The position numbers were made by a program, and so were the translations under genes. A DNA stretch of 64,000 nucleotides from Agromyces mariniharenae (lineage in GTDB: Bacteria; Actinomycetota; Actinomycetes; Actinomycetales; Microbacteriaceae), in the NCBI RefSeq assembly GCF_008122505.1, contig NZ_VSSB01000001.1, positions 186,001 through 250,000 of the forward strand, read 5' to 3'. Below, piece by piece: positions 36,443 to 54,347 of the stretch (the stretch's first letter is position 1; every line of letters starts with the position of its first letter). The notes under the pieces are model-generated. The model saw nothing but the letters and a program-made list of their open reading frames with translations, had not been told where the DNA came from and made no database searches.

Positions 36443-39349
36443 TCAGTTGTCCACGTGGACAGGCCACGCGCATCTCATCGGTTCCCCACCGGGCGGTGCC
36501 AGCCAGCACTGCGCGACGGGGTCGTCGAGCAGCGGCGGCAGCGCCGAACCGGCCGCGAACACGCGGAACTCGCGCGATCCGCCGTGCACCACGATCGCGG
36601 CCTCCTCGCGCACGAGCGCGGTGAGCGTCCAGTTCGCCGTCCACGCGTCGGCGTCGCCCACGATGACGAGCGGATGCCCCGCTCCCCCGCCTGCGGCGAT
36701 CGCGGCACGCGCGACGGCGTCGAGACCCGGCTCGAGGAGCACGGGCTCGTGACCGAGTCCCCGGAGCGTCGCGGCATCCGCCCGCGGACGCATGCTCACG
36801 ACCGCGGTGACCGCGGCCGTGCCGACGCGCAGGGGCCGTGCCTCGGCGCCCGGGTCGGACGGAAGGGACGGGACGTCGACCACCTGCAGCCGCCGCTCGC
36901 GCCACTGGCCGGAGCCCGGCGGGTCGCCGGAACGCCAGAGCGCAGCAGATCCGCCCGCCTGTGCGAGGTCGGTCCGCGTCGGATGCCGCAACAGCACGGT
37001 CGAGCCGAACGACTCGCGCAGGCCGGCCGGGAGGCGGTGCGTCGAGCCCGCCGACGCCGCGATCCCGAGCCCTCGCTCGCGCCCCTCGCGCAGCAGCCGC
37101 TCGAGCATGCCGACGGCCGCGATGCGGTGGTCGTCGGGCCAGTCCCGGAACGCGACGTCCAGGTCGTCGACGAGCAGGAGGCACGACGTCGTGGTGCGGC
37201 GATCATCCTCGACGAGCGCGCGCAGGGTGTCCCACCGCGCGCTCGCCGGTCGAACGAGACGACGGACGTCGACCCGGATCGCCGTCGCCGCTTCGGCGAG
37301 CGCCGCCAGCGCCGTCGACCGGCCGCTGCCCGGTTCGCCGAGGATGAGCAGGTGCCCGTCGGACTCGGGCGTCCAGGTCGCCGGGACGTGCCGCTGGCGC
37401 TCGGGGTCGTCGAGGATGCCGAAATCGAGCGCCGGGCCCCGCTCCGTCTCCTCGGCATCTCGCGCCGGGGTCGCGGCGCGCACGAGTCGGATGAGTGCGC
37501 TCTGCGCGACACGCGCTGGCAGGGGGTCCACCCACGGGCGGCGCGCGGCGGCCATGTCCGACGTCGACCGCCGCAGCCGTTCGAGCGTGCCCGGGTCGAC
37601 CATGGCGGACTGGAACACCACGGGGCATCCGTCGCCCGCGTCGACCACCCCGCGGCCCGGCGTGTCGGGCCGGATGGCCGCCGCCGCGTCGGTGCCGACG
37701 ACCGCGACGCTGTCTGCCCGCTGGCGCACGCGCAGCGACACCCGGATGGCGCAGTTCGCCGACACCTGCTCGCGCACGACGCCGTTCGGGCGCTGCGACG
37801 CGAGCACGAGGTGCACGCCCAACGACCTGCCGCGCGCGGCGACGTCGGCGACGACCGGCCCGAGGTCGGGGAACCGGTCGATCATCGCCTGGTACTCGTC
37901 GACCACGAGCACGAGGCGCGGCAGCACGACCCGGTCGGGGAGCGCAGCGAGGTCGCGCTCACCCTCGGCGAGCAGCACGGCCTCGCGGTGCCGCAGCTCG
38001 GCGCGCAGGCTCAGGACGGCGCGCTCCGCCTCGGCCTCGTCGAGGTCGGTGACGATGCCCGTGACGTGCGGCAGCCCGCGCAACGGCTCGAACGCCGCGC
38101 CGCCCTTGAAGTCGACGAGCAGGAAGGACACCCGGTCGGGTGGATGGCACGTGGCGAGCGCCGCGAGCCACGCGACGAGGAACTCGCTCTTGCCGCTTCC
38201 GGTCGTGCCGGCGACGATCGCGTGCGGCCCGTGCTCGACCAGGTCGAGGGCGAGCGGTCCGAGGGCGGACTGGCCGACGACCGCCCGCAGCGTGGTCCTG
38301 GATCCGTCGTCGGACGCCGGTTGCTCGAGGGCGTCGAATGCGATGCGTGCGGGCACGCCCGACTCCGGTCCCCACCGCTCGCGCTCGGCCATCGCCCGCA
38401 CGCGATCGGCCCACTCGGATGCCTCGACGGCGCCGACGAGGTCGGGCACGATGCGCGTGGGGCCCGCGGCCTCCCCGCGGCGCTCGATGACCGCGCGCCG
38501 GTGATCCTCGACCCGGACCAGCGTCTCGAGGCCGGGAGGCAGGTGCTCGGCCGCGTCGGCCACTGCGATGGTCGCGACGCCATCGGCGTCGGTCGGCGCG
38601 GAAGGGGTCGTCGTCGCATCGCGTTCGGATCGCCCGACGACGCGCAGCGCGGTCGGGCCGCTCCGATGCGGCAGCGGTGTCGACCACCCCCATGCCTCGC
38701 CCGCCGGCACGGCGATGCCGACCTCGTCGGGGCGGCCGCCGTGCGTGACCTGGACCACGAGGGCTCGCGCGAGCGCGTCGGCGACGGGCTCGATCCCGAC
38801 GACGCCGATGCCGCCGGCGAGCGAGGCCACGACGGGTGCGTCGTCGAGCGCTCCGGCGGCGCGGAGCAGCGCACGATCATGGTCGTCGGCGGGGACGCCG
38901 TCGACCCTCACGCCGCTCGCGACCGTGCCGTGCCCGAGCACGACCCTGCCCGGCGGCCCGGCACGCCAGTCGAGGGGGCGGGCGCCGTCGACGATCTCCC
39001 GCGCCGAGGTGACGCGGCGCCATCGCGCGGCGCGCTCGCCGGCATGCCGGTCGGCGACCGCGGACCGGAGCTCGGCCAGCAACGCCGCCCGCTCCGCCGC
39101 GCCTCGACGACGTGCCCGGCGCCCCTGGCGTCGCGCGTCGACGACCGACGCGACGGCCACGAGCGGACCGAGCGCCGCGAACGCGAGCGAGAGCGCCGAC
39201 CCCGTCACCGCCCAGAGCACCGCCGCGCCGGCGAGCGGGGCGATCGCCGCGAGCCACGGGAAGCCGGGCGCGACGGGGTCGGGCGCCCGGGGCGGGAGCG
39301 CGAGCTGCGGGTCGCCGGGCGGGGCGTGCTCGGGCGGAGGTCGGTCCAC
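36443..39349 (-). CDS. FtsK/SpoIIIE-domain ATPase, EssC/EccC-like
   Basis: 968 residues. Two adjacent membrane helices at about 29-75, then a cytosolic region and two ATPase modules, the layout of type VII secretion EssC/EccC proteins. Module 1 is intact: Walker A GTTGSGKSE (381-389), Walker B LLVDFKGGA (410-418), DEYQ (484-487) and LASQRPNG (517-524). Module 2 is degenerate: GEPGSGRST (671-679) has Arg for the Walker Lys; LLLVDD at 724-729. The N-terminal FHA domains of Firmicutes EssC are absent, but an FHA protein is encoded just upstream. No WXG100/Esx gene is nearby. GTG start 39347-39349 is uncertain. Last gene of the FHA-kinase cluster. Confidence 0.8.
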   Translation of the reverse strand: MDRPPPEHAPPGDPQLALPPRAPDPVAPGFPWLAAIAPLAGAAVLWAVTGSALSLAFAALGPLVAVASVVDARRQGRRARRRGAAERAALLAELRSAVADRHAGERAARWRRVTSAREIVDGARPLDWRAGPPGRVVLGHGTVASGVRVDGVPADDHDRALLRAAGALDDAPVVASLAGGIGVVGIEPVADALARALVVQVTHGGRPDEVGIAVPAGEAWGWSTPLPHRSGPTALRVVGRSERDATTTPSAPTDADGVATIAVADAAEHLPPGLETLVRVEDHRRAVIERRGEAAGPTRIVPDLVGAVEASEWADRVRAMAERERWGPESGVPARIAFDALEQPASDDGSRTTLRAVVGQSALGPLALDLVEHGPHAIVAGTTGSGKSEFLVAWLAALATCHPPDRVSFLLVDFKGGAAFEPLRGLPHVTGIVTDLDEAEAERAVLSLRAELRHREAVLLAEGERDLAALPDRVVLPRLVLVVDEYQAMIDRFPDLGPVVADVAARGRSLGVHLVLASQRPNGVVREQVSANCAIRVSLRVRQRADSVAVVGTDAAAAIRPDTPGRGVVDAGDGCPVVFQSAMVDPGTLERLRRSTSDMAAARRPWVDPLPARVAQSALIRLVRAATPARDAEETERGPALDFGILDDPERQRHVPATWTPESDGHLLILGEPGSGRSTALAALAEAATAIRVDVRRLVRPASARWDTLRALVEDDRRTTTSCLLLVDDLDVAFRDWPDDHRIAAVGMLERLLREGRERGLGIAASAGSTHRLPAGLRESFGSTVLLRHPTRTDLAQAGGSAALWRSGDPPGSGQWRERRLQVVDVPSLPSDPGAEARPLRVGTAAVTAVVSMRPRADAATLRGLGHEPVLLEPGLDAVARAAIAAGGGAGHPLVIVGDADAWTANWTLTALVREEAAIVVHGGSREFRVFAAGSALPPLLDDPVAQCWLAPPGGEPMRCAWPVHVDN

Positions 39350-39471
39350 CCCGTCATCCGATCACGCGGGGCTCGCCGCCTGTGCGGCAGTCGCGCGACC
39401 GACGAGGCGACGCGGCATCCGCTCGGCTGGGGAGGACGGGACGACGCCGGACGGATCGCCGGTCGCCCGCG

Positions 39472-40188
39472 TCAGGCGACGGTGAACGACTGCTCGGCCA
39501 GCTCCACGAGGCTCCCGCGCGGGACGAGGTACCGTCGCCCGGGCTCGCAGCGCAGCGCGCCGTCGTCGGGGCGCCGCACGATGGTGCCGTTGCCCGAGAA
39601 GCGGTCCGCGATCCAGAGCTCGCCCTCGTGCTCGCCGAACTCGAGGTGCGTCTTCGACACCGAGAGCGTGCGGTCGGCGATCTGCACCAGGTGGTCGAAC
39701 GCCTCCCCGGGCTGCGGCAGCGGCCTGCGTCCGATGAGGCCCGTGCCGAACACCGTGCGGGTCTCGCCGGTGCTGAACGCGAGCACGAATCGCGACCCGG
39801 AGCGCGCCGACGGCGCCGCGTCCGTAGACGGGGCCGTCGCCCCGGGCGCCGCGAGCGCCGACGACGCGGCAGCGTCGAGCACGCGCGCGATGGCGGCATC
39901 CGCTCGCTCGTCACCCGCGTAGGCGCTCGCGGACGCCGCCGCCTCGTCGAGCACCCGGGCGACGCCCGCCTCCGCCCGCGCATCGTCGTCGCCGACGGCG
40001 CGGAAGCCGTGCACCGGGATGCTGACGACGCCGCTGTTGCGGCGCGCCGGGCGCTCGATGGCGGTCGTGTCGCCCGGTCGCGGATCGGGTCGGCGGCGTG
40101 ATTCGGGCGTCGCGCTCGTGGAGCTGCCGCACTCGCCGCAGAACATCGCCCCCTCGGGGAGGTCCGCACCGCAGATCCGACACGTCAC
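39472..40188 (-). CDS. Zinc-ribbon/FHA-domain protein
   Basis: 238 residues. An N-terminal zinc ribbon (Cys 3, 6, 17, 20: CRIC...CGEC), a low-complexity Ala-rich linker with two related segments (VARVLDEAAASASA and IARVLDAAASSALA), and a C-terminal FHA phosphothreonine-binding domain at about 140-235 (LIGRRPLP, SVSKTHLEF, RFSGNGTIV). GTG start overlaps the transglutaminase-like gene's stop (GTGA). Probably reads phosphorylation by the cluster's kinase and could dock on the neighbouring FtsK-like ATPase; both are inference. Confidence 0.87.
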   Translation of the reverse strand: MTCRICGADLPEGAMFCGECGSSTSATPESRRRPDPRPGDTTAIERPARRNSGVVSIPVHGFRAVGDDDARAEAGVARVLDEAAASASAYAGDERADAAIARVLDAAASSALAAPGATAPSTDAAPSARSGSRFVLAFSTGETRTVFGTGLIGRRPLPQPGEAFDHLVQIADRTLSVSKTHLEFGEHEGELWIADRFSGNGTIVRRPDDGALRCEPGRRYLVPRGSLVELAEQSFTVA

Positions 40189-42482
40189 GGCCTGGCTCCT
40201 CTCCGCGTCACAGCGTACCCGGCCAGCGAGTTCAGCGAGATCGCGGCGCGGAGCCGGTCGCGGCGGGTGCGCGGCGCGCCGAGTCGTTCCTGCAGCTCGT
40301 CGACCGTGTCCCACACGCGCTCGTCGTCGCCGTCGGCCGGCCCGTCGGGCGCGTAGACCGCCCGGTCGACGACGGAGGCGAGCACGAGCGGACCGAGTCC
40401 GCCCACGGTGGCCGCCTGCTCGGCCCGGGTCGCGTTCTGGCGGATCGGGTATCCGTAGTCTGCGGCGGAGTCCGCGAACTCCTGCCAGCCGCCCTCGATG
40501 CGCTCCACCGGGGTGGGCGCCCGCCGGCGGAGGCGCCGGCGCCGGAGCTTGGCGACGATGATGGCGAGGAACGGGCTCACGAGCACGGCGAGGCCGAGGA
40601 GCACGAAGCCGGCGACGGCGAGCGCCGCGAGCAGCGCCTCGACCCACGGCTCGATCCCCTGATCGGGCTGGTCGAGCGTGAGGTCGGGATCGGGATCGAG
40701 GTCGTCGACCGGCGTCCGCTCGGCGGGCGGCGGCAGCGCCGACTGCGGCCGGGACACGACGGTGGGCTGGTCGGGCTCGCGCTCGGGGATCTCGCGTGGC
40801 GTGGGATTCGGGTCGATCGGCACCCACTCCCCCTCCGCGGTCTGCACCTCGATCCAGGCCTGGAGGTCGTCGCGCTCGAAGACGACGGCCTCGCCGGCGC
40901 CGACCTGTGGCTCCTCGGGGTCGGAGAGGTAGCCCACGACCGTGCGCGCCGGGAAGCCGATCTCGCGGGCCATGAGCGCGGCGGCCACCGCGTACTGCTC
41001 GCCGTCGCCGAGCATGGGCCGCTCCTCGGCGAGTTCGATGATCCGGTCGAGCGAGTGCCCCGAACGACTGAACTCCTCGTCCTCGGTGCCGTGGCTCACG
41101 AACCCCGTGGCCTTCAGGCCCGAGATCATGCCCTGCAGTCGCTGGCCGGGGGTGCCGGAGGCCGGTGCCCACTCGTCGAGCAGCGGCCCGAGCTCGTCGG
41201 GCATCGCGGGCGACGCGGGCAGCACGCTCGTGCCGGGCTGCAGCGACTCGAGGCTCTCGGGGCGAAGCGGGGTGATCGAGTCGGCCGTGTAGCGATCGCC
41301 CGCGCTGAGCCCGGTCTGCACGGCGCCCGTGCCCGTCACGTCGTTGTAGAAGAACCCGTCGGCGAGCACCGGTGCGCGGTCGCCGCCGAACGTGATGCGC
41401 TCGAGCTGGCCAACGCCGGGCACCCAGACGTCGTCGTAGCCGAGCACGAGCACCTCGAGGTGCGTGGACGTGCCGTCGACGTCGCCCTGGTCGAGCCGGT
41501 ACGGGACGCGCGTGAACCGGCCGGACTCCCCCGTGCCGTCGTTGCCGCCCACGTTGTAGACGATGCCGTCGTAGGTGTCGAGCGTCGCGATCCGCAGTCC
41601 CGCGCCCGGAGGCAGCCCGGTGACCTCGAGCATCTCGTCGTCGGTCGTGTCGGGCTCGAACGCCGTGCGGAATCCGGCGAGCGGGCTCTCGTGCTCGCGC
41701 GGCTCGAACGGCGGCTGCAGCTCGGCGCGCACGACGCTGCGGGGCGGCGACGGCAGGGCGACGGCGGCCGCGGTGGCACCGACGAGCGCGACGGCCACGA
41801 GGGCGGATGCCCCGAGCACGCGTCGGGCGTCGGCGAGGGCGGCCTCGACCGGCCGTCCGGTGGTGATCGCGCGCCGTCGGGCGATGGCGACGCGCACGAG
41901 CCACGCGATCGAGGTGACGAGGAAGGCGAGGCCGGTCTCGACGGCGAGGGTCGCGTGCACGACCCCGAGCGCGATACCAGCCAGGAGCAGCAGCGCCGGC
42001 GGGATGACGGCCGCAGCCGGCCGCCGGCTGCGGAGGGCGATCGTGACGGCGGTCGTGGCGGTGACGAGCGCGAGGAGGAAGGCCGGCACGAGCAGGGCCT
42101 GGTAGGAGCCGACGGGCACGGCGATCGTCACGAGCTGCTTCCACGACAGCGCGGCCCCGGCCAGCAGCTCGACCAGCCCGTGCGGCGTGACGATGACGCC
42201 CGCGATGGCGCTCCCGGGCACCGCGGCGGGGACGCCGAGGGTGACGTAGGCGCCGAAGACGGCGACGACGACGGCCCAGGCCGGCCAGTGGAACCGCGCG
42301 CCCGCGAGCCCGATGCCCGAGCCCGCGACGATGGCGACCGTCGCGGCCACGACGAACGCGGTGCTCTCGTAGATCGGCCACCACGGGATCATCGCCGCCA
42401 CGAGCATCGCGGCCACGAGGGCCATCGAGATCGCGGTGGACCACACGCCCTCGGGCGCCGCAGACCGCTGCTGCGCGCTCAT
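40185..42482 (-). CDS. Transglutaminase-like membrane protein with missing catalytic Cys and His
   Basis: 765 residues, as in the DUF3488/TgpA-type transglutaminase proteins: seven or so membrane helices (13-245), an extracellular domain with the transglutaminase core (about 485-560), one helix (about 605-640) and a cytosolic tail. In active members the core reads GDCEQ...HAW...D. Here GDGEQ has Gly 494 in place of the nucleophile Cys (codon GGC at 41001-41003), and LQAW has Gln 541 in place of His (CAG at 40860-40862); only Asp 557 remains. So it is probably an inactive scaffold. ATGA and GTGA overlaps join it to both neighbours. Confidence 0.87.
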   Translation of the reverse strand: MSAQQRSAAPEGVWSTAISMALVAAMLVAAMIPWWPIYESTAFVVAATVAIVAGSGIGLAGARFHWPAWAVVVAVFGAYVTLGVPAAVPGSAIAGVIVTPHGLVELLAGAALSWKQLVTIAVPVGSYQALLVPAFLLALVTATTAVTIALRSRRPAAAVIPPALLLLAGIALGVVHATLAVETGLAFLVTSIAWLVRVAIARRRAITTGRPVEAALADARRVLGASALVAVALVGATAAAVALPSPPRSVVRAELQPPFEPREHESPLAGFRTAFEPDTTDDEMLEVTGLPPGAGLRIATLDTYDGIVYNVGGNDGTGESGRFTRVPYRLDQGDVDGTSTHLEVLVLGYDDVWVPGVGQLERITFGGDRAPVLADGFFYNDVTGTGAVQTGLSAGDRYTADSITPLRPESLESLQPGTSVLPASPAMPDELGPLLDEWAPASGTPGQRLQGMISGLKATGFVSHGTEDEEFSRSGHSLDRIIELAEERPMLGDGEQYAVAAALMAREIGFPARTVVGYLSDPEEPQVGAGEAVVFERDDLQAWIEVQTAEGEWVPIDPNPTPREIPEREPDQPTVVSRPQSALPPPAERTPVDDLDPDPDLTLDQPDQGIEPWVEALLAALAVAGFVLLGLAVLVSPFLAIIVAKLRRRRLRRRAPTPVERIEGGWQEFADSAADYGYPIRQNATRAEQAATVGGLGPLVLASVVDRAVYAPDGPADGDDERVWDTVDELQERLGAPRTRRDRLRAAISLNSLAGYAVTRRGARP

Positions 42483-43798
42483 GCGACCGACGCCGATCTG
42501 GCGAGCATCGCGCGGAGGTCCTCGAGGTACCCGATGCCGAACACGGTCAGGCCCGCGACCGTCCGAGCGGAGGCCTCACCGCCGGGCGAGCACTGCACCG
42601 CGATCGCCTCGACGCCGGCCGGCAGCCGCGATGACGCCGCGCGCAGCGTTCCGGCGCCGCGGGCCGTGCCGGTGATGAGGAAGGCGAGCGAGACGCCGGG
42701 AAGCGACTCGGTGGCCGCACGCGCGACGTCGGGCAGCAGGACCGCGGCGTCGTCGCGTTCGACGACGCAGAGGGCATCGAGCAGCCGGTCGCGCGACACG
42801 GTCGGCAGCTCGCGCATCCCGCTGCCGCGCGTGCCCACGCGGCCGCGCCCGGAGACGACGAACGACACCGTGCGTGCGTCGCGGATGGCCCGGGCGCCGA
42901 GGGATGCCGCGGCGCTCACCGCGAGCTCGAACTCCTCGTCGTCGGCGTAGGCGCCGGGTTCGAGGTCCAGCAGCACCATGAGCCGGCTGCGCCGGGTCTC
43001 CTCGAACTGGCGCACCATGAAGGTGCCCGTCTTCGCCGAGCTCTTCCAATGGATGAACCGGCGGTCGTCGCCGGGCACGTACTCGCGCAGCGCGTGGAAC
43101 GCGATGTCGCTCGCGGTGAGGTCGCGAGTGGGCGACCCCTCGAGGTCGCGGATGAAGCCCGTGCTGAGCGTGCCGATCGCGATCGTGCGCGGATGCACGT
43201 GCAGGTCGACCGACTGCGACCACACGATCTCACGGCGCATGAGGCCGATGGGATCGGCGCGCACCGTGCGCGCGGGCCCGACGGGCACGATGCCGCGTCG
43301 CTCGGTGGGGATGCGGAACTGGTCGTCGAACGCCCCGCCGCGCGGGAGCCCGGGCAGCACGCGCTCGACGACCCTGTTCCCGACCGGCACCTCGAGCTGC
43401 ACCCCGCCGAAGCGACGTCGCCCGGGGTTCGCCGCGATGAGGCGCGCCTGCGCCTGCTCGCCGACGACCACGCGCGGGGTGGGCAGCATGAGCTCGATGG
43501 TCGACGCGCCGCGGCCGATGAGCCAGACGGATGCCACGCCGACGAGCAGCACGAGCCCCCACCCGATGGCGATGAACTCGACCCAGCCCCAGGTGTATCC
43601 GACGGCGAGCGCCGCGACCGCGCCGGCGACGACCGCCCAGCCGAGCGGCGTGACGACGCCCTGCACGGCGCGCGCCCAGTCCCGGACGACCCCGGCCGCC
43701 GCCACGATGCCGCGGACGGCGCGTCCGATGACGACCGCGAGGAGTCCCTCTCTCTTCGCCTCCTCGGGGATCGACGTGCGGGTCTGGGTGAACGTCAC
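42479..43798 (-). CDS. DUF58-family membrane protein
   Basis: 439 residues with a membrane pair at about 50-92 and the DUF58 signature REYVPGDDRRFIHWKSSAKTG (about 238-258) ahead of a vWA-like segment beginning LMVLLDLEPGAYADDEEFE. DUF58 proteins routinely accompany MoxR ATPases, and the vWA part is thought to be the MoxR-dependent chaperone client or metal-binding adaptor. GTG start overlaps the MoxR stop, and its stop overlaps the transglutaminase-like start (ATGA). Confidence 0.9.
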   Translation of the reverse strand: MTFTQTRTSIPEEAKREGLLAVVIGRAVRGIVAAAGVVRDWARAVQGVVTPLGWAVVAGAVAALAVGYTWGWVEFIAIGWGLVLLVGVASVWLIGRGASTIELMLPTPRVVVGEQAQARLIAANPGRRRFGGVQLEVPVGNRVVERVLPGLPRGGAFDDQFRIPTERRGIVPVGPARTVRADPIGLMRREIVWSQSVDLHVHPRTIAIGTLSTGFIRDLEGSPTRDLTASDIAFHALREYVPGDDRRFIHWKSSAKTGTFMVRQFEETRRSRLMVLLDLEPGAYADDEEFELAVSAAASLGARAIRDARTVSFVVSGRGRVGTRGSGMRELPTVSRDRLLDALCVVERDDAAVLLPDVARAATESLPGVSLAFLITGTARGAGTLRAASSRLPAGVEAIAVQCSPGGEASARTVAGLTVFGIGYLEDLRAMLARSASVA

Positions 43799-44760: not shown

Positions 44761-44779
44761 CGTCATGCTCGCTCCTCGC

Positions 44780-47700
44780 TCATCGGTTCCAGTAGCGGGC
44801 GACCACGCCCGCCACCTCAACATCCAACCAGACCCGGTCCCCGGGCTTGGCTTCCGGCACCTGGCACGTCGTCGCCGTCTGGGCCGTGCGCGGGGGTCCG
44901 CCCGCGCCCTCGATCCCGCAGCGGAAGACGGCGGGCAGTCCGGAGTTGTCGGGCGCGGCCGTCCACGACCAGGTGCCCGTCGCCTCGTTCCACACCCGGC
45001 TCGGCAGGGCGAAGGTCAGCGACGGCTGGGCGTCGGCCGGCAGGATCGCCGACCACGGACCGCAGCTGCCCCACACCGAGCACGAGCGCACCTGGAACCG
45101 CGCGGCCTCGCCGAACGGCCGGTTGAGGAGCGTCCGCAGCCAGCCCGTGCCGCGGAACTCGGCAGGGCTGCCGATCTGGGCGCCGTTCGCGTCGACGGCG
45201 ACGATCTGCAGGCGTGGGCCGCCCGCGTCCACCCGGTCGATGTAGCGATCCCAGGTCTCGGTGTTCATCCAGTCCATGCGGCTGTCCACGCCGCCGACGG
45301 CGCCCGGCGCCGGCCGTACCACGATCCCGGCGACCTCGGTGTTGACGCAGGCCGACCGGTTGTAGCCCCAGACCACGAAGGAGTAGCGCGCCGACTCGGT
45401 GGCGGTGCCCGTGAACTGCACGCTCGAGGCATCCGGCCCCACCTGCACGACCTCGGCGACGGTGCCGCCGCTCGCCGGCGCGACCACGCTTCCCGGAGCC
45501 GGGCTCGTCACCGAGCACGCCTGCGGACCGCTCGGCACGGCCGACTGCCCGTCGGCGAGGCGCTGCACGAAGTAGCCGCCCATGGCGTCGCCGTTGCCGT
45601 TGAACGGCGCCCACGCGACCGTGACCGTGCCGGCGAGCGCGTCGCCCGTGACGGTGATCCCGCCCGCGATCGGCGGGCCGAACGGCGTGCCGGTGCCGCC
45701 CGCCTCGGTCCACGCGGCGAGGGCCGGGTAGGCCTGGTTGCGCGCGCTGACCGTGAACGGCACCTGCGTCCCGTTGGGGATGCCCTGCGACACGGTCGAG
45801 CAGGCCGTCGCGGTGCAGGTCGCGGCATCCACCTCGCTCGAGACGCCGGCGACCGTGACGACGTACGAGCGGACGGCACTGCCCGCACCCGTCGAGACGG
45901 GCTGCCACTCGATCGCGAGGCGGCCGTCGAGCGGCAGTGCGCGGAGGCCCTGCGGGGGCGGCGGGACGACGTCGGACCAGATCGGGCCGGGTGCGTCGAC
46001 CGGGTCGGAGAGGCCGATCGCGTTCCGGGCCTGCACGCGCACGACGACCGCATTGCCCTGGCCGTTGCCGGGCGTGCCGACGGTGCAGGTCGTCGCCGCG
46101 CAGGTCGACGTGCCGACCACTCCGCCGTTCGCGGGGTCGACGAGTGCGATCTCGTAGCCCGTGATCGGCGAGTTGTTGAACCCGCCGGCGCCGAACACGA
46201 CGTCGAGCGTCCCGTCGCCGAAGCCCGTCACCTGCGGGGCGCTCACCGGCTCGGGCCGGTCCTGGACGGAGATCGTGATGGTGCCCCAGGCGTACCGGCT
46301 CGGATCGCCGGTGGCGTCGGCGACCTGGTACTGCAGCGTCGTGTTCACGGGAGCCGCGCCCTGCGACACGTCGACCGTGAGCGTGGCGTTGTCGGCGCTG
46401 GGCTCGATCGACACGCCTGCGGGCAGGCTGTCGTCGATGCCGCGGACGCCGACCACCCGCAGCGGGGTTCCCGGGAACGGGTTCGTGGCCGAGTCGTTCG
46501 CGAGCACGTCGATCGTCGTCGTGCGTCCGCGCGCGGCAACGGCGAGGTCGGCTGCGGGCTGGGCGAGCGGCCGCGTCGACGGGACCACGCGCAGTTCGAT
46601 GCGACCCGGCGTGCCCTGGCCCGAGGCGTCCTCGACCGCCACCGTGACCGACTGGCGGGCGCCGGTCGGCGTGGCCTCGAGCGCGGTGATCTCGAGTTCC
46701 CGCCCCGTCGCGACGAGGCGGAAGCCCTCGGGCTCGGGCGCGAGCACGCGGTAGGTCAGCTCGTCGATCGCATCGGGATACGGGTAGTTGGTGAGGCGCA
46801 CCAGGTCGACGGTCTTCGACTGGCCGGGCTCGAAGTCGATCACGCCGCCGGTGAACGCGGGAGGCTGGTCCTCGGTCGGCTCGACCGTGATCGGGATCAC
46901 GATCGTGCCCGTGCGGGCCGTGGGATCGCCGTCGGATTCGCCATCGGTCACCGTGAACGACAGCGACGCGAGGCCGAAGTAGCCCGGCTCGCTGCGGAAC
47001 CGCAGCGTGTCCTGGTCGACCACGAGATCGCTGCCGTCGCTGTGCGAGGCGCGCACCGTCGCGGTGTCGGTGATGCGCACCGGCCGACCGGATGCCGCGA
47101 TGACGTAGTCGTCGAGGTCGAGCACGACCTCCTCGCCGCTCTCGACCCTCACGTCGGGCGCGTCGCGGCGCAGTTGCGGCAGCGCGTCGTCGCGTCCGGG
47201 GACCCAGATGAACGCGTACGCCGTCACCTCGGGGTCTTCAGGGTGGGTGACCGAGAACGGGATGATGCGCCGCTCGTCCTCGACGGCGACCCGGATGCTG
47301 CCGTCGCGGCGCACCTGCGCGCCCCGATCGTAGTTCGCGACGAGGCCGACCTGCAGGTCGGCGGGGTTGCCGTCGGCGAGGAACACGTTCCGCAGCACCT
47401 CGACGTCGACGAACTCCTCGTCGAGGATGTCGCTCAGGCTGAGCACGGTGTCGGATGCCTCGGGGCGGGCGAACGGCGCGTCGTCGTCGGCCGTGACCGT
47501 GAGGAACGCCTGCGCCGAGCCGAGCCCCTCGTTCTCGACGGTGTAGACGAAGCCGAAGACGCCTTCGTGGTCGGGCACGTCGACGCGCACTACGCCGGCG
47601 TCCTCGTCGATCGAGGCCTGGGCGTCGTTGCCGTTGGCCTCCACGTCGACGAGCGCGAGCCCGCCGCCGTCGGGGTCGGAGTCGTTCGCGAGGACGCGCA

Positions 47701-50656
47701 CCGCGATGGTGCGGCCCGGGCGCACCGTGACCTCGTCGGCGACGGCCATCGGCGGACGCGAACCGTCGATGCGGGGCGCGATGCCCACTCGGATGGTGCC
47801 GTCGGCGCGGGCGCCGAGCGCGTCGATGATCGAGTACTGGAACGCGTCGGTGCCCGCCGAGTACTCGCCGGCCTGGTACTCGAGCCAGTCGCCGCCGCGG
47901 TCGGTGACCGCGCCGCGGTCGGGGTTGGACTCCTGCGCGAGCAGCTGCACCGAGTCGCCGTCGGGGTCGACGCCGCCCAGCGGGATCGGGATGCGCACGG
48001 TCTCGCCGGCGAGCACGCGCGCGGTGATGGTCGGCGGCACGGGCGCGGTGTTCGTCGCGGGGTCGGCGTCGCGCACCGAGATGTGCACGTCGGCGGTGGC
48101 GTTCTGCCCGTCGGGCCCGGCGACCCGGTACTGCGCGTCGTACTCGCCGGGCGCGTCGGGTGCGAAGTAGCGCAGGCGGTCGCCCGCGGCGAACAGGAGG
48201 CCGGCGGCGGGCTCCAGCACGAGCTCGGGCGCGAGCGTGAGCGGCAGGCCGTCGGGCTGCTCGTCGTTGTCGAGCACCGCGATGTCGACGACGTCGCCCG
48301 TGCGCGCCGAGATCGTGTCGGGCACGGCCACGGGCGGCTGGTCGACGGGCGGTGGCGGCACCTCGACCACGGTGACCTCGCCGTCGGCCTCGGCGAGGCC
48401 GTTGCTCACGCGGTAGCCGAACACCGTCGACCCCGTCGCGAGCGGCCGCGAGAGGGTGACGCGCAGGATGCGGTGGTCGACGACCTCGACCCGCACGCCC
48501 TCGTCCTCGGCGGTGTCGGTGAGGCCCGTGACGACGAGCACGCCGCCCGTGGGGTCGATGTCGGTCGCGAGCACGTCGACGTCGAACGGCTGGTTCGCGC
48601 GCAGGAACGCGGTGTGCGGCACGGTGATCGGGGTCGTGTCGCGGTCGGGCGGTGCCGACACGTCGACACGCACCGTGCCCGTCGCGGTCATGGTGCCGTC
48701 GGTCACGGAGTACTCGATGAGGTGCGTGCGCACCGCCGAGCTCGTGAACCGGAAGCTGCCGCCGTCGAAGTCGGGCGTGACCTCGACGTCGGGCTTGGCC
48801 GGCACGGCGCTCAGGCGCACCGGTCCGGAACCCCCGCGCACGTGCCGAAGCGGGTCGATCCGGATCTCCTCGCCCGCCGTGGCGAGCGCGACGAACGGCT
48901 CCGCGACGAGGGGCACGTCGCCGGGCGCGCGCACCGCGACCGTGAGCTCACCCCCGCCGTCGTCACGCCCGTCGGACACGAGGAGCGACACGGAGCGCTC
49001 CCCGCCGACGCCGCCGCGCTCGTCGAACACGACCACGCCCTCGGCCGTCGACGAGGCGGCATCGGGTTCCTCCGTCGTGGCCGAGCGCAGGAAGAACGGG
49101 TCGCCGTCGGGGTCGATCCATTCGCCGAGCACCGCCGTGGTGACGCGTCCGCCGACCGCGACGGCGGCGTGGTTCGCCCGCTGCTGCACGGGCGGCGAGT
49201 TCTCCTCGGTCTCGCGCACCGTCACGTTCACGCTGGCGTGCGCAGTGCCGCCGCGGCCGTCGCCCACGGTGTAGCCGAACGAGACGACGCCGGATGCCGC
49301 GTCGTCGAGCGTGAGCTGCAGCTGCTGGTTGCTCGACACCCGGTCGACCTTCGCGCCGGGCGGCAGCTCGCCGTCGACGGAGTCGACGACGAGCACGTCG
49401 CCGTTCGCGTCGTAGTCGTTGAGCAGCACGGGCAGGAGCGTCGACCGGCCCGGTCGTGCGCCGAGCTCGTCGTCGGTCGCGACAGGCGCCACCTGGCCCT
49501 TCTCGAGGATGGGCGGCGTGTCGGGATCGTTCTCCTCGATCGTCTCGTCGTCGCGCTCGGTCTCGAGCAGGTCCGCCCAGTTGTCGATGAGCCCGTAGTC
49601 GGCGGAGGCCGCCCACGTGTGGCCGCTGGGACGATCGTTCAGCACGAGGGCGTCGCCGTTCTCGCCGAAGTCGAGCGCGGTCGCGCCCTCGCCGTCGTCG
49701 AGCTCGAACCGCTCCCCCTGGCCGCCCGGACAGGCGACGGCCGCGTCACCGCCCGCCCACGCGGCATGGAGGCATCCGTCGAATCGCACCGGTGCGGCGG
49801 GTGCGCCGGCGACGTCGTCGACGACCGCGACCGGCGCGCCGCCGTCGAGGTCCACGACGACGAGACCACGTCGGTGCGCGACGGCGACCGATTCGCCGTT
49901 CGACGCCGGCTCCTGCAGGCGGACCTCGTCGCCGATCCGGATCATGGTGGAGAGGTCGATGCGGCGACCGTCGATCGTGAGCGTCCGGTCGGTCGCGTCG
50001 AGCACCACCCAGTGCTGGTCGATCGAGGTGACCTGCACGTCGTGGTCGTCGTCGACGGGCTCGGCCTGCCATCTGGCGGCGACGGTCTCCTCGCCGGCCG
50101 CGTCGACCCGGGCGACCTCGCCCGTCGACGGCGTGAAGGCGAACAGGACGCCCTCTGGGTCGACCGACGTGACCGTGCCCTGGCCGAACGTGAGCAGCGG
50201 ATCGGCCTCCGCGTCGAAGTCGACGAAGTCGGCGGCGGGCACCGACCAGAGGTCGCCGTCCGTGGCGACGACGACCCGGTCGCCGGCGAGGGCGAGCGAC
50301 GTGTCGCCGGGCGGGACGGGAACGGTCTCGACGACCTCCGACGTCGTGGCGTCGACGACGCCGACGCTCGCGCTGTCGCGGTCGACGACGAGCACGGTCG
50401 AGCCCTGCTGCACGACCTCCGTGTCGGAGCCGCCCGTCTGCACCACGGAGTTCAGCTCGTGGATCTTCGTGTTGGCCCGGCCCACGGATTCGAGGCCGCC
50501 GTTCACGACCCAGACCGCCGCGTCGCCGAGGTCGACCCGCTGCGCGGCGTACCCGCCGGAGGCGACGGCGACCCCGACCACGATCGCGATCACGCCCGTG
50601 ATCGCGCCTGCGGTCACGAGGGCGGAACGGTGGCCGCCGAGCTTCGGCAGCCGCAT
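44780..50656 (-). CDS. Giant surface protein with propeller, cadherin/Ig-like and FN3 repeats
   Basis: 1958 residues. A single N-terminal membrane helix (14-36) after a short cytosolic tail, with no cleavage site, so type II orientation. Residues about 80-350 repeat VVD/DLWSVP/VDP strands like a beta-propeller. About 390-1465 holds a run of cadherin/Ig-like (VCBS/Big) modules marked by NDYDANGDVL, DIDPTGGVLVV, DNDEQPDGLPL, NDSDPDGGGL and NDSATNPFPG. About 1470-1790 has FN3 repeats with paired cysteines (CAATTC, CTATAC), then a 170-residue C-terminal domain with cysteines (CSVWGSC). No LPxTG. Starts by TGATG overlap with the kinase. Equivalent of fn3 in the bifidobacterial PFNA cluster; ligand unknown. 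Confidence 0.88.
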   Translation of the reverse strand: MRLPKLGGHRSALVTAGAITGVIAIVVGVAVASGGYAAQRVDLGDAAVWVVNGGLESVGRANTKIHELNSVVQTGGSDTEVVQQGSTVLVVDRDSASVGVVDATTSEVVETVPVPPGDTSLALAGDRVVVATDGDLWSVPAADFVDFDAEADPLLTFGQGTVTSVDPEGVLFAFTPSTGEVARVDAAGEETVAARWQAEPVDDDHDVQVTSIDQHWVVLDATDRTLTIDGRRIDLSTMIRIGDEVRLQEPASNGESVAVAHRRGLVVVDLDGGAPVAVVDDVAGAPAAPVRFDGCLHAAWAGGDAAVACPGGQGERFELDDGEGATALDFGENGDALVLNDRPSGHTWAASADYGLIDNWADLLETERDDETIEENDPDTPPILEKGQVAPVATDDELGARPGRSTLLPVLLNDYDANGDVLVVDSVDGELPPGAKVDRVSSNQQLQLTLDDAASGVVSFGYTVGDGRGGTAHASVNVTVRETEENSPPVQQRANHAAVAVGGRVTTAVLGEWIDPDGDPFFLRSATTEEPDAASSTAEGVVVFDERGGVGGERSVSLLVSDGRDDGGGELTVAVRAPGDVPLVAEPFVALATAGEEIRIDPLRHVRGGSGPVRLSAVPAKPDVEVTPDFDGGSFRFTSSAVRTHLIEYSVTDGTMTATGTVRVDVSAPPDRDTTPITVPHTAFLRANQPFDVDVLATDIDPTGGVLVVTGLTDTAEDEGVRVEVVDHRILRVTLSRPLATGSTVFGYRVSNGLAEADGEVTVVEVPPPPVDQPPVAVPDTISARTGDVVDIAVLDNDEQPDGLPLTLAPELVLEPAAGLLFAAGDRLRYFAPDAPGEYDAQYRVAGPDGQNATADVHISVRDADPATNTAPVPPTITARVLAGETVRIPIPLGGVDPDGDSVQLLAQESNPDRGAVTDRGGDWLEYQAGEYSAGTDAFQYSIIDALGARADGTIRVGIAPRIDGSRPPMAVADEVTVRPGRTIAVRVLANDSDPDGGGLALVDVEANGNDAQASIDEDAGVVRVDVPDHEGVFGFVYTVENEGLGSAQAFLTVTADDDAPFARPEASDTVLSLSDILDEEFVDVEVLRNVFLADGNPADLQVGLVANYDRGAQVRRDGSIRVAVEDERRIIPFSVTHPEDPEVTAYAFIWVPGRDDALPQLRRDAPDVRVESGEEVVLDLDDYVIAASGRPVRITDTATVRASHSDGSDLVVDQDTLRFRSEPGYFGLASLSFTVTDGESDGDPTARTGTIVIPITVEPTEDQPPAFTGGVIDFEPGQSKTVDLVRLTNYPYPDAIDELTYRVLAPEPEGFRLVATGRELEITALEATPTGARQSVTVAVEDASGQGTPGRIELRVVPSTRPLAQPAADLAVAARGRTTTIDVLANDSATNPFPGTPLRVVGVRGIDDSLPAGVSIEPSADNATLTVDVSQGAAPVNTTLQYQVADATGDPSRYAWGTITISVQDRPEPVSAPQVTGFGDGTLDVVFGAGGFNNSPITGYEIALVDPANGGVVGTSTCAATTCTVGTPGNGQGNAVVVRVQARNAIGLSDPVDAPGPIWSDVVPPPPQGLRALPLDGRLAIEWQPVSTGAGSAVRSYVVTVAGVSSEVDAATCTATACSTVSQGIPNGTQVPFTVSARNQAYPALAAWTEAGGTGTPFGPPIAGGITVTGDALAGTVTVAWAPFNGNGDAMGGYFVQRLADGQSAVPSGPQACSVTSPAPGSVVAPASGGTVAEVVQVGPDASSVQFTGTATESARYSFVVWGYNRSACVNTEVAGIVVRPAPGAVGGVDSRMDWMNTETWDRYIDRVDAGGPRLQIVAVDANGAQIGSPAEFRGTGWLRTLLNRPFGEAARFQVRSCSVWGSCGPWSAILPADAQPSLTFALPSRVWNEATGTWSWTAAPDNSGLPAVFRCGIEGAGGPPRTAQTATTCQVPEAKPGDRVWLDVEVAGVVARYWNR

Positions 50657-52071
50657 CAGCCGACCCCCGTCACGTCGACGCACCGCTCGGCGCTGGGGTC
50701 GCCCGACTTGCCCTCGCGGGTCACCGTGACGGTGACGCACACCCGGTCGCCCTCCTGCACGGGCACCTCGACGCGGGCGACGCGCTGGATGGGCTCGGGC
50801 TCGCCGTCGACGGCGACGAGGTAGGCGTCGCCGCCCTGGATCCCGGGGTCGTCCCAGGTGAACACGGCCGAGTCGCCGACGACCGAGCCCTGCACGTTCG
50901 CGACGACCGGGATCGAGCGGGTGCCCTGCAGGACCGCGACGACGCCGGCGCCGACGAGCGCGACGATGAGGGCGGCGGCGATCGAGATGCCCCACACGAG
51001 CCGCCTCATGGTGGGCGGCGCGGTGCGCTGGCGGCCCGTGGACACCTCGTGCGAGCGGCCGTCGATCCCCTGCGCGGCGCTCGAGGCCCGCACCGGGATG
51101 CGCCGCGAACGGCGCCGGCTCCCCTGCGCGTCGACGTTCGAGTGATGGCCGCTCACGCGCGTGCGCTCGTCGAGGTCGACCGCGGTCGCGAGGGCCCAGT
51201 CGTCCATGGCGACCTCGAGCGGCGTCTGCGGCAGCCCGAGCTCCTCCTCCGCCGACTGCAGGTCGCGGATGAACTCGAGCGCGCTCGCCTGCCGGTCCTG
51301 GGGCCGCTTCGACATCGAACGTGCCAGGACGCGCTCGAGGCTCGGCGGCACGTCGACCCGTCCGGTCGGCGCCGGCTTCGCCTTCTCGATGCGCCCCATG
51401 AGCGTCACGGGCGCGTTGTCGCCGCCCGGCACCTCGAACGGGCTGCGGCCGGCGAGGAGCGAGTAGACGGTGGCCCCGAGCGACCACACCTCGCTCGCGA
51501 CGGTGCCCGACACGTCGTCGTGCAGCACCTCGGGCGCCGACCACGGGATCGACAGGCCGACGGCCTCGGTCGTCTCGGCCTCGCCGAGGGTCGCCGCGAT
51601 GCCGAAGTCGGAGAGCACGGGGTGTCCGTAGGCGGTGGTGAGGATGTTCGACGGCTTGATGTCGCGGTGCAGGACGCCCTGCCGGTGGGCCGTCTCGACG
51701 GCGCTGGCGATGCGCACGCCGATCGAGAGCACCTCGGCGAGCGGCAGCTGCACGGCGCGGTAGCGCTGCCCGAGCGTCGACGAGCAGTACTCCATCACGA
51801 GGTAGGGGCGCCCGTCGGCGGCGACGCTCGCCTGGTACACCGTGAGGATGGACGGATGCGACGACAGCTGGGCCATCAGGTTGGCCTCGGCCTGGAACAT
51901 CCGGCGCAGGTCGTCGTTCACGACCTCGGCGAGCAGCACCTTCACGGCGACGAGCCGACGCGGCATGTTCTGCTCGTAGAGGAAGACGTCGGCGAACCCG
52001 CCCGAGCCGAGCACGCGGATGAACGCGAACCCGGGCAGGTTCGGCGGGGTGGACGGCAGGCGCCTCGTCAC
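50656..52071 (-). CDS. Membrane Ser/Thr protein kinase (PknB-like)
   Basis: 471 residues. Gly-rich loop LGSGGFADVF (21-30), catalytic Lys 44 in VAVKVLL, HRDIKPSN (135-142), DFG (155-157), SAPEVL (178-183). A linker with Arg clusters leads to a membrane helix (about 357-381) and an extracellular domain of about 90 residues with two cysteines (Cys 445, Cys 464), FN3-like rather than PASTA. GTG start with GGGAGG upstream. Gene order kinase then giant FN3/Ig protein, with TGATG overlap, mirrors pkb2-fn3. The extracellular part could sense the adjacent surface protein. Confidence 0.92.
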   Translation of the reverse strand: MTRRLPSTPPNLPGFAFIRVLGSGGFADVFLYEQNMPRRLVAVKVLLAEVVNDDLRRMFQAEANLMAQLSSHPSILTVYQASVAADGRPYLVMEYCSSTLGQRYRAVQLPLAEVLSIGVRIASAVETAHRQGVLHRDIKPSNILTTAYGHPVLSDFGIAATLGEAETTEAVGLSIPWSAPEVLHDDVSGTVASEVWSLGATVYSLLAGRSPFEVPGGDNAPVTLMGRIEKAKPAPTGRVDVPPSLERVLARSMSKRPQDRQASALEFIRDLQSAEEELGLPQTPLEVAMDDWALATAVDLDERTRVSGHHSNVDAQGSRRRSRRIPVRASSAAQGIDGRSHEVSTGRQRTAPPTMRRLVWGISIAAALIVALVGAGVVAVLQGTRSIPVVANVQGSVVGDSAVFTWDDPGIQGGDAYLVAVDGEPEPIQRVARVEVPVQEGDRVCVTVTVTREGKSGDPSAERCVDVTGVG

Positions 52072-52135
52072 GATCCTCCCAGCGTTCGAGTCCGTCGGCG
52101 CCCGCACCAACGCCCGGCGGGCCCCGGTGACCCCC

Positions 52136-52141
52136 ATTGTA
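52136..52141 (-). promoter_or_regulatory. -10 box upstream of the kinase gene
   Basis: TACAAT on the minus strand, 64 nt before the kinase GTG: a promoter able to transcribe kinase and all downstream genes without the phosphatase. Confidence 0.5.
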
Positions 52142-52204
52142 GGCGGGCGCACGGATGCCGCCACGACGGCTGTGGGGACGTGCCGCGGCGGCCCGCGGCA
52201 TCCG

Positions 52205-53032
52205 TCAGTCGACGTCGCTGTCGGGGCTGCGGTGCTGGGGCGCGTGGGCGGGTCGGACGACCTTGAGCACGTCGACCACGACGACCGTGATGTTGTCGCG
52301 ACCGCCGTTGCCGACCGCCGCATCGACGAGCTGGCGGGCGGCCTGCTCGGGCTTCGGGTTGGCCACGAGGAAGTGCCGGATGCCGTACGACGTGAGCTCC
52401 TTCGTGAGCCCGTCGGAGCAGATCAGCAGGCGCATGCCCGGCTCGACCGCGATGGCGCGGTAGTCGGGGATCGGCGCCTCGTGGAAGCCCACGGCGCGCG
52501 TGATCACGTTGGAGTGCGGGTGCGTGTCGGCCTCCTCGCGCGTGATCTGGCCGGCATCGACGAGCTCCTGCACGATCGAGTGGTCGACGGTCAATTGCTC
52601 GAGCACGCCGCCGACGAGCCGGTAGACGCGCGAGTCGCCGATGTTGAACACGATCCAGGCGGGCTCGTCGGAGATGCTGCCGAGCGCGGCGCCCGTGACC
52701 GTGGTGCCGCTGCCCTCGTCGGTGACGCCGGCGCCGCGGCCCATGTCCTGCACCGCGAGCCGGAGGGCCGCGTCGATCTCGGGGGTGCCCATCATCGACT
52801 TGCCGCCGTGCTCGGCGAGCCGGGTGACCACGGCGGCGCTGGCGAAGTCGCCGGCCGCGTGCCCGCCCATGCCGTCGGCGACTGCGAAGATCGGCGCCTG
52901 CGCGACGAAGCTGTCCTCGTTGACCTCGCGGCGCAGGCCCGTGTCGGTGACGGCGGCCCATGCGATCGTGATCTCGGTGCCGTCGGGCAGCGTGACGCGA
53001 TGACGGGCGTTGCCGTTGCCGATCTGGGTCAC
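52205..53032 (-). CDS. PP2C-family Ser/Thr phosphatase (Stp/PrpC-like)
   Basis: 275 residues. Metal-binding aspartates: Asp 40 in REVNEDSF, Asp 53 in AVADGMGGHAAGD, Asp 207 in LICSDGLTKEL and Asp 246 in GRDNITVVVVD. SGTTVTGA and NIGDSRVYRL are also typical. Soluble, so it acts in the cytoplasm to reverse kinase phosphorylation. GTG start 53030-53032, 25 nt after the FHA gene's stop; the ribosome site is weak. Ends 133 nt before the kinase. Confidence 0.93.
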   Translation of the reverse strand: MTQIGNGNARHRVTLPDGTEITIAWAAVTDTGLRREVNEDSFVAQAPIFAVADGMGGHAAGDFASAAVVTRLAEHGGKSMMGTPEIDAALRLAVQDMGRGAGVTDEGSGTTVTGAALGSISDEPAWIVFNIGDSRVYRLVGGVLEQLTVDHSIVQELVDAGQITREEADTHPHSNVITRAVGFHEAPIPDYRAIAVEPGMRLLICSDGLTKELTSYGIRHFLVANPKPEQAARQLVDAAVGNGGRDNITVVVVDVLKVVRPAHAPQHRSPDSDVD

Positions 53033-53057
53033 GGGACGTGCCTGCTGTCTGTTCGGG

Positions 53058-54347
53058 TCACTCGGGTGGAGCGGTGGGGGCGGGGAGGATCTCGATGATC
53101 GTATCGTCTCCGAGGTCGAGGCGGGTGCCCGGTGCGACCACGATGGACTCGCCCGCGCGCATGCGGCGCACACCCGCCGCACTCCGCACGATCGTGCCGT
53201 TCGTGGAGCGCAGGTCGGTCGCCACGACGCGGGTCCCCTCGACGCGCAGCTCGAGGTGCGTGCCCGACACCACGGCGCGCGGCGACGCGACGGTGACGAG
53301 CTCGGGGACGACGCCTCGAGGATCGGGGACGCGCGGCGCGTGCGGCCGTCGGCCGATGAGCACCGGGCCCGTGACCGGGCGCGGCTCGCCGGTGCCGATG
53401 CGGAACGCGGGCGCGCCGGGCGCCGCGCGCGGCTCGACGGATGCCGCGGCGGGGGGCTCGACCGATGCCACGACGTGGGCTTCGGCCGCGCGGTCGTGCT
53501 CGGCGGGGCCGTCGTGTCCGGTCGGCGCGTCCCGGTCGGCCGTCGGCGGTTCAGGCGGTACCGGGATGCTCGCCGGCTCCAACCGCAGGCCCGCGCCGAG
53601 CACGCGCGGCTCGAGACCGGCGAGGTCCTGGTCGGGCGACGGGGACGGCGTCGCCGCCGGAGCGATGGCGCGGATGCGGGACGTGGGCGGCGAGGCGAGG
53701 TCGAACTGGGGCTCCCGCAGGGAGCTCGTCGTGCGGACGGTGTCGGCGACGGCGTGCTCGTCGGCGGTGTCGTCCTGGCGGGTGCGCACCGTGTCGGGAT
53801 CGTGCGGACGCGGCAGGAGCACCGTGTCGGCGTCGGCGACCGCGGCATCGGGTCGGCGGGGCGGCTGCGGCGCCGCCGACCACTCGACGGCGGACGCGCG
53901 GAAGCCGGCGCGCGCATGCCCCACCGCGTCGCCCGACTCGCCGAGGCGGTCGAGGGGCGCGTCGACCCCGGTGACGCGCAGCGCGATCACGGAGCCGAAG
54001 TCCGCCAGGTGCCACGGGCGGATGCCGCGGGCATCGAAACGCCGAGTGCCGCCGGGCGACGTGAGGTCGACCACCGCGTCGCCGCGCACCACGGCGGTCA
54101 CCTCGTCGGTGCCGGGGCCGGGCCACCACACGATGGCGAACGACTCGACGGCGCCGGCACCGCCGAGCGGGATCGTGCCGACGAGCGCCTCGACGGTCAC
54201 CGCGTCGTCGGCGGCCGCGGCGGCGAGCGCCGACGTGGTCGCGTCGGGCGAGGGCGCGGCGATGGCGACGATGAAGCGGTGGCCGACCACGACGTCCCAC
54301 GCGGGTGCACCGGGCACCGCCGCGCTCGTGACGGTTCCCGCGACCAT
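53058..54347 (-). CDS. FHA-domain protein
   Basis: 429 residues. An N-terminal region of about 130 residues, beta-rich with AWDVVVGHRFIVAI and GSVIALRV, of unknown fold; a long Pro/Asp/Ala disordered linker (about 140-330) with threonines that could be kinase sites (ADADTVLLP, PDTVRT, ADTVRTT); and a C-terminal FHA domain at about 335-425 (VLIGRRPHAP, SGTHLELRV, STNGTIV). ATG start with CAGACT 7 nt upstream. First gene of the cluster; 45 nt downstream of the aldehyde dehydrogenase on the same strand. Confidence 0.87.
   Translation of the reverse strand: MVAGTVTSAAVPGAPAWDVVVGHRFIVAIAAPSPDATTSALAAAAADDAVTVEALVGTIPLGGAGAVESFAIVWWPGPGTDEVTAVVRGDAVVDLTSPGGTRRFDARGIRPWHLADFGSVIALRVTGVDAPLDRLGESGDAVGHARAGFRASAVEWSAAPQPPRRPDAAVADADTVLLPRPHDPDTVRTRQDDTADEHAVADTVRTTSSLREPQFDLASPPTSRIRAIAPAATPSPSPDQDLAGLEPRVLGAGLRLEPASIPVPPEPPTADRDAPTGHDGPAEHDRAAEAHVVASVEPPAAASVEPRAAPGAPAFRIGTGEPRPVTGPVLIGRRPHAPRVPDPRGVVPELVTVASPRAVVSGTHLELRVEGTRVVATDLRSTNGTIVRSAAGVRRMRAGESIVVAPGTRLDLGDDTIIEILPAPTAPPE

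Follow-up and report, generated by a model that had tools for sequence, protein, structure and literature searches.

What role could a membrane kinase and a giant surface protein, encoded together in a cluster of the type called PFNA in bifidobacteria, play beside a gene for a secretion-type ATPase? The question is raised by nine genes of Agromyces mariniharenae, which lie at positions 36443-54347 of a window of 64,000 nucleotides, the whole stretch of DNA analysed (contig NZ_VSSB01000001.1, positions 186,001 to 250,000; assembly of 4.08 Mb in 3 contigs). The original prediction had named them as genes for FHA, PP2C, membrane kinase, giant FN3/Ig, MoxR, DUF58, transglutaminase-like, zinc-ribbon/FHA and FtsK/EssC-like proteins. 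Gene calls together with Pfam and NCBIfam profiles confirmed all nine, which are co-directional, mostly overlapping and read leftwards; window coordinates given below are all on the minus strand. The cluster, which is conserved in Microbacteriaceae, is probably a reduced T7SSd-like relative of the type VII secretion systems (T7SS), working as a kinase-switched machine for export or assembly at the envelope. The window form is reduced in that the motor carries no FHA head, the third P-loop is degenerate and no WXG100 gene lies in the cluster.

The first part of the answer comes from the ATPase itself (36443..39349, 968 aa), a short motor with two N-terminal transmembrane (TM) helices, a DUF domain and three ATPase domains. 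Profiles, PDB matches and a tree place it closer to EccC/EssC than to FtsK, and by AlphaFold fold comparison the EccC fold is retained across its full length. On these sequence and model criteria it is a member of the EccC/EssC secretion motor family and not a DNA translocase, and the EssC lineage first proposed for it holds; when EssC/EccC profiles were set against FtsK profiles, it scored with the EccC side. The protein is 92% identical to one of Agromyces sp. NPDC004153, and the genus-named rows among the 120 listed relatives are all Agromyces.

Does this motor belong with its neighbours? Among 60 Agromyces genomes, 57 have the motor and 55 the transglutaminase-like gene of window type. In 53 of the 57 motor-bearing genomes the two are co-directional and no more than 1.6 kb apart, a count that leaves out second, leuC/D-type copies. 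In a wider sample of 120 Microbacteriaceae genomes (85 genera), the motor was found at E 1e-75 in 67, with the transglutaminase-like gene within 4.4 kb upstream on the same strand in 45 of them (34 of 50 motor-bearing genera); this count covers all 67 motor places and most transglutaminase-like places, some weaker second copies being omitted. In the remaining genomes the gene is far away on the same contig (6), on another contig (11) or absent (5). Because the two genes are neighbours in 53/57 Agromyces genomes and 45/67 genomes of the family, the arrangement is far beyond chance. That the FtsK-like gene encodes a DNA translocase standing beside a PFNA cluster by accident is therefore very improbable: profiles, PDB matches, tree and full-length fold favour EccC, and the linkage recurs in 34 of 50 genera. 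This candidate was rejected.

Larger relatives of the locus exist in other Actinomycetales (loci, genomes, contigs and families are cited by our L, G, C and f numbers). The accessory genes often share an operon with a full-length EccC there, and the typical locus comprises genes for giant, MoxR, DUF58, transglutaminase-like, RDD/FHA, PP2C, FHA, kinase, FHA/HTH-like and EccC proteins, and in some of these operon loci a WXG100 gene follows EccC (beside the linked EccC, above the Pfam cut-off in four loci, L084, L086, L088 and L092, and slightly under it in L082). Compared with operon-linked loci such as L086-L090 and L121-L123, the window has homologous, co-directional genes for the giant, MoxR, DUF58, transglutaminase-like, PP2C, FHA and kinase proteins, whereas those loci have a permuted order, an EccC of about 1400-1500 aa (an FHA head is present in both of the full-length EccC checked from this taxonomic order), an FHA/HTH-like gene and, in some, adjoining WXG100 genes. 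Of 149 sampled genomes, 41 gave the best EccC (scores above 900 bits, 33 lower-scoring rows being left out), and in 23 of these a co-directional transglutaminase-like gene lies no more than 15 kb away. Among 80 named loci, 56 have at least 8 kb of downstream sequence and EccC is present in 45 of the 56, including loci of Microbacterium, Agreia, Herbiconiux, Subtercola, Cryobacterium, Promicromonospora, Oerskovia, Isoptericola, Cellulosimicrobium, Arthrobacter and Pseudarthrobacter. EccB (PF05108, E 1e-5), which marks T7SSa, was detected in 23/149 genomes, in 2/41 best EccC genomes (G007 and G067) and in 0/14 controls; no match at E 1e-5 was found in the A. mariniharenae genome.

A conserved protein of 200-250 aa lies between kinase and EccC in these operons (L086 14230-14907; L119 16169-16888). 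Pfam gives no hit for it in L086 and L119 and a single subthreshold one in L061; by eye, an FHA-like part is followed by a helix-turn-helix-like part, and we named it FHA/HTH-like. It is perhaps a phospho-dependent regulator. The operon beside EccC in L219 (G090) looks decayed, with an in-frame stop in the transglutaminase-like match and several weakly matching neighbours. Three records titled Sphaerisporangium, Stenotrophomonas and Planococcus (L125, L131 and L133) carry Micrococcales-type loci and are likely to come from mislabelled or contaminated assemblies.

In a search across the phylum, full EccC was found at E 1e-150 in 15 of 296 genomes, and 12 stretches from 11 of the searched genomes were mapped. 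One of them (L237) has giant, MoxR, DUF58 and FHA/HTH-like genes near EccC, and in another (L236) EccC and WXG100-like genes lie on the opposite strand to DUF58, transglutaminase-like, PP2C, FHA and FHA/HTH-like genes. Eight stretches (L238, L240-L246) carry EccC without the accessory set, L244 having weak matches for transglutaminase-like and kinase genes; L235 and L239 have no EccC label. In family f4 the locus L203 reads kinase, giant, MoxR, DUF58, transglutaminase-like, PP2C and an LRV-repeat protein, with the FHA gene on the other strand, and in part from this order we infer that f4 is Bifidobacteriaceae. The LRV-repeat protein after PP2C (L203 14983-15735) is perhaps the 'hypothetical' gene of the published PFNA cluster. 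In two f4 genomes with EccC above the score limit (G082 and G138), EccC lies about 33 kb from the transglutaminase-like gene.

The A. mariniharenae genome holds a separate T7SS-type locus (L006 4998-15772; C1:2566997-2577771), which by eye lies between rpoC-like and rpsL-like genes. It encodes an RDD/FHA protein, a 1494-aa EccC with an FHA head, one Pfam-called WXG100 protein, a neighbouring 108-aa protein and several unknown proteins, of which one has three TM helices. A second set of PFNA-like genes, lacking EccC (L061; C2:476000-495900), adjoins aconitase-family (leuC/leuD-like) and EPSP-synthase-family genes. In the motor tree (58 rows, chosen by label and length), all 17 short motors fall into a single clade (SH-aLRT 100). 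A 1072-aa protein of family f14 branches closest to them (98), and the next group out is a clade of 28 EccC (fork 90; clade 100), of which 20 belong to operon loci; three EccC of T7SSa type, with EccB nearby, stand apart. The L006 EccC falls inside the clade of 28, where it shares a six-member group (100) with the EccC of Agrococcus casei, a copy that is part of the operon. Because of this grouping, the standard machine of Agromyces seems to be split between L006 (EccC, RDD/FHA and WXG100) and the PFNA set of L061, and the window carries one more, paralogous set. When MoxR, DUF58 and transglutaminase-like proteins are placed in a tree (59 rows, chosen in the same way), the seven window-type loci of Agromyces group together (100); their sister group has three members, among them L091, which belongs to an EccC operon. 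Short EccC-like proteins that contain three P-loop motifs occur in family f14 (L094 6918-10136, the one nearest the window-type motor in the tree; L095 7956-10439), and no PFNA-type genes lie alongside them in these stretches.

If the motor is of the EccC type, does it still export? Its ATPase 1 P-loop is intact (GTTGSGKS, residues 381-388; 38186..38209) and invariant in 57/57 aligned Agromyces motors. In the same 57, the ATPase 2 P-loop has Lys replaced by Arg (GEPGSGRS in the window, residues 671-678; 37316..37339), and GDADAW stands at the expected place of the ATPase 3 P-loop in the window motor (residues 898-903; 36641..36658). The gene set also varies. Gene maps show the nine genes in window order in L247, L248 and L251; the zinc-ribbon gene is unlabelled in L249 and L252, L250 begins at PP2C, and in L253 three unlabelled genes separate the motor from the transglutaminase-like gene. 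L254 has hardly any gene calls, and in L262 no gene is labelled as kinase, PP2C, FHA or zinc-ribbon; unless Pfam is cited, labels come from non-curated profiles that were seeded with genes of the window and of L006. Four Agromyces genomes (G154, G179, G180 and G188) and L255 and L258 have motor, PP2C and zinc-ribbon/FHA genes, some with FHA, and lack the core from kinase to transglutaminase-like gene. In the motor tree, G179, G180 and G188 are nested among core-bearing Agromyces, which suggests that the core was lost there, while G154, likewise coreless, is basal. Five Microbacterium stretches around the motor have PP2C alone of the set beside it, and at 4 of the 53 linked Agromyces loci the gap of 108-127 nt is too small for a zinc-ribbon gene. 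The expected co-occurrence of the two extra genes with the other seven thus stands as a rule across Microbacteriaceae and not as a strict unit.

These observations bear on the main rival, a surface-signalling or wall-homeostasis device in which kinase and giant would sense the envelope, MoxR, DUF58 and the pseudo-transglutaminase would mature the giant, and the degenerate motor would be a scaffold or a chaperone motor that exports nothing. The altered second and third P-loops, the cluster without WXG100 and the presence of the core and the zinc-ribbon/FHA gene without a labelled motor in L259-L261 all speak for such a device. It is nevertheless the less likely explanation, since the ATPase 1 residues are invariant, the EccC fold is kept over the full motor length and sister loci have full EccC, several with WXG100.

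The zinc-ribbon/FHA gene (39472..40188, 238 aa) offers a second view of how the cluster relates to full T7SS-type loci. Its FHA domain has no Pfam call and Zn_Ribbon_1 is just under the cut-off, and all 11 Agromyces copies examined retain the CxxC pairs and the SxxH/N motif. The original prediction took the two extra genes as parts of a split EssC, one the FHA subunit and the other the membrane ATPase. The window protein scores 106 bits, and nine copies 104-110 bits, with a profile made from RDD/FHA-type proteins, whereas against the EccC FHA-head profile one of the nine gives 17 bits and eight give no hit (each profile was built on the first 40 sequences of its set, and the RDD domain itself was checked by Pfam in L006 and L086 only). 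The split was therefore rejected, and the protein corresponds to the separate RDD/FHA gene of full T7SS-type loci.

How does the cluster compare with systems already described? The first seven genes had been likened to the bifidobacterial PFNA set, and the published order pkb2, fn3, aaa-atp, duf58, tgm (PMC8430577, available part of the text) is present in the window on a comparison of Pfam domain types. In the accessible portions of PMC8430577 and PMC6803598, kinase, giant, MoxR, DUF58 and transglutaminase-like genes follow the same order and PP2C and FHA genes are shared, whereas the window has PP2C and FHA upstream and an additional zinc-ribbon/FHA gene and EccC-lineage motor. T7SSd has been described from Actinomycetota including Olsenella and Bifidobacterium (PMC11217815; Garrett, Higginson and Palmer 2024), and the part of that text available lists a WXG100 protein, an ATPase with an FHA head, a kinase and two further proteins, one small with a TM helix and one giant and Ig-like, and raises control by FHA domains and phosphothreonine. 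There, TsdI is a giant with a signal peptide, Ig-like domains and a C-terminal TM helix, and TsdH is small with a single TM helix. An EccC/EssC-type ATPase, a membrane Ser/Thr kinase and a very large Ig-like envelope protein are common to T7SSd and the window, whereas the window lacks an FHA head on the ATPase, a WXG100 gene and, by hydropathy, a C-terminal TM helix on the giant. A TsdD-type membrane kinase is present by architecture, and the giant has the Ig-like repeats and an N-terminal TM helix. The protein of about 230 aa between kinase and EccC in the operon loci was considered as TsdH and rejected, having no TM helix by hydropathy in the two checked.

An ordinary, complete T7SSd-type paralogue with WXG100 proteins supplied in trans would also account for the presence of kinase, giant Ig protein and EccC-lineage motor, and WXG100 proteins are encoded elsewhere in the genome. 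It is rather improbable, given that the motor is without FHA head, that neither a TsdH candidate nor a WXG100 gene is seen at the locus and that the genome has its own full-length EccC locus with WXG100. By word search of the main texts, the PFNA review (PMC8430577) does not mention FtsK, EssC or type VII, and the T7SSd article (PMC11217815) does not mention MoxR, DUF58, transglutaminase, fibronectin or PFNA. No link between PFNA and type VII secretion was found in the available parts of PMC8430577, PMC6803598, PMC5720513 and PMC11217815, and among the other matches listed from the open-licence literature, titles and opening lines of abstracts gave no pointer tying PFNA or MoxR/DUF58 to it; T7SSd itself turned up in one paper of that literature. 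The bifidobacterial PFNA set seems to belong to a type VII locus akin to T7SSd, a reading based on shared operons and not on comparison with named species.

The transglutaminase-like gene (40185..42482; TgpA_N and Transglut_core in Pfam) encodes a TgpA-like membrane protein. The window protein matches PDB 6g49, which we take to be TgpA of Pseudomonas, with 21 bits, and the match starts at residue 495; the residue preceding that start in TgpA is presumably the catalytic Cys. Both have TgpA_N and the transglutaminase-like domain, whereas in the window protein alignment puts Gly at the Cys position (residue 494; codon 41001..41003), within the motif GDGEQYA. Across copies with the motif GDxEQ[YF]A this position is D, E, G, A, S or Q. 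Among 61 proteins obtained without the motif as query, 59 have a readable motif and 0 a catalytic Cys (44/44 without it in the first set, 4/6 in the third with two unreadable, and 11/11 in the last); the 80 named loci, found by the motif itself, are excluded from this evidence. As the Cys is gone in every readable copy, the protein is likely to be a structural or binding part and not a cross-linking enzyme. This contradicts, for the cluster described here, the enzyme role presumed for tgm in PFNA of bifidobacteria (PMC8430577, available part).

The giant (44780..50656, 1958 aa) was characterized by Pfam, TM prediction, AlphaFold and Foldseek. An N-terminal TM helix is followed by a beta-propeller (about residues 45-372; 49541..50524; model block with pLDDT mostly at least 90) and by Big_9/cadherin-like repeats, Pfam calling 6 Big_9 stretches and cadherin-like domains. 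Of the FN3/Ig label given earlier, the Ig-like repeats stand; fn3 is not called by Pfam at E 0.01, and the FN3-like repeats at the C-terminus are a reading by eye. A relative in family f4 (L203) has two fn3 stretches by Pfam. The best fold match of the propeller is 1l0q, the YVTN propeller and PKD of an archaeal surface protein, with BamB next. In L122, L138, L139, L142, L153, L183 and others, the giant gene has directly upstream of it another gene, of about 360-480 aa, that also matches the giant profile.

The kinase gene (50656..52107, alternative start 52137; Pkinase 139 bits) has intact VAVK, HRDIKPSN and DFG motifs, one TM helix (residues 374-392) and a C-terminal part that is Ig-like by eye. 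PP2C (52205..53032, 275 aa; PP2C_2 40 bits) keeps NEDS, DGMGG, GDSR and RDNIT and scores 199 bits against the Stp1 model, under its cut-off of 230. The FHA protein (53058..54347, 429 aa) has 28 bits in Pfam. Since the catalytic or binding motifs of kinase, phosphatase and FHA proteins are intact, gating by phosphorylation is plausible. MoxR (43795..44766, start at 44766 or 44823; AAA_3 209 bits) and DUF58 (42479..43798; 48 bits, 3 TM helices) complete the set. Kinase and giant genes overlap by 1 nt; MoxR/DUF58, DUF58/transglutaminase-like and transglutaminase-like/zinc-ribbon genes overlap by 4 nt each, and 122 nt separate zinc-ribbon/FHA and motor genes. By eye, the cluster is flanked by a polyamine transporter on one side and by aldehyde dehydrogenase, an Lrp-like regulator and an aminotransferase on the other.

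On the favoured interpretation as a reduced T7SSd-like machine, the giant, with its propeller and Ig repeats and held by its N-terminal helix, would span the wall and is likely the outer part. The kinase would read an envelope signal and phosphorylate threonines of its partners, and the two FHA proteins would bind these sites and recruit the headless motor to the membrane complex, free adaptors replacing the FHA role carried by the head of full EccC. PP2C would reset the switch. MoxR, DUF58 and the Cys-less transglutaminase-like protein likely form an assembly or maturation complex, and ATPase 1 may power the movement of cargo encoded outside the cluster, perhaps the WXG100 protein of the locus between rpoC-like and rpsL-like genes.

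Several points weigh against this interpretation. Gene calls and a PF06013 search of the genome found no WXG100 gene in the cluster, and the two PF06013 hits each lie more than 2.3 Mb from it along the contig (control: hits in 4/14 genomes, 1 over the cut-off). The motor has no FHA head by Pfam call, and without head and ATPase 3 P-loop it may not bind classical substrates; T7SSa EccC likewise has no N-terminal FHA domains (PMC11217815, available part). No TsdH candidate is among the window gene calls, no TsdH sequence having served as query. The other 18 of the 41 best EccC genomes are unlinked, with the transglutaminase-like gene far away or on the other strand (7), on another contig (6) or without a hit (5). 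The likening of operon-linked loci to T7SSd goes by described features and not by sequences of Olsenella or named Bifidobacterium, and the motor tree is a quick one without bootstrap, with uneven letter make-up, the window row included, and a long branch at L094. The nine-gene modules are partly separable, and all functional steps of the machine are inferred.

The PFNA operon, which encodes a cytokine-binding giant and is regarded as host-sensing in gut bifidobacteria, appears to be one piece of a system of which the newly named T7SSd is another; PFNA-type genes and a type VII motor share an operon in Arthrobacter, Microbacterium and Cellulosimicrobium. We tentatively suggest that the PFNA genes are the missing half of an Actinomycetota T7SS, with a second, FHA-adaptor-gated form in Microbacteriaceae that has a structural pseudo-transglutaminase, no WXG100 cargo genes at the locus and no FHA head on the motor. 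The PFNA 'transglutaminase' should be treated with caution, as it is probably not an enzyme. The Microbacteriaceae form raises the question of whether a type VII motor could function when its locus has no WXG100 genes, and the PFNA proteins would gain a testable job, with a candidate for the wall-spanning part of such a T7SS.

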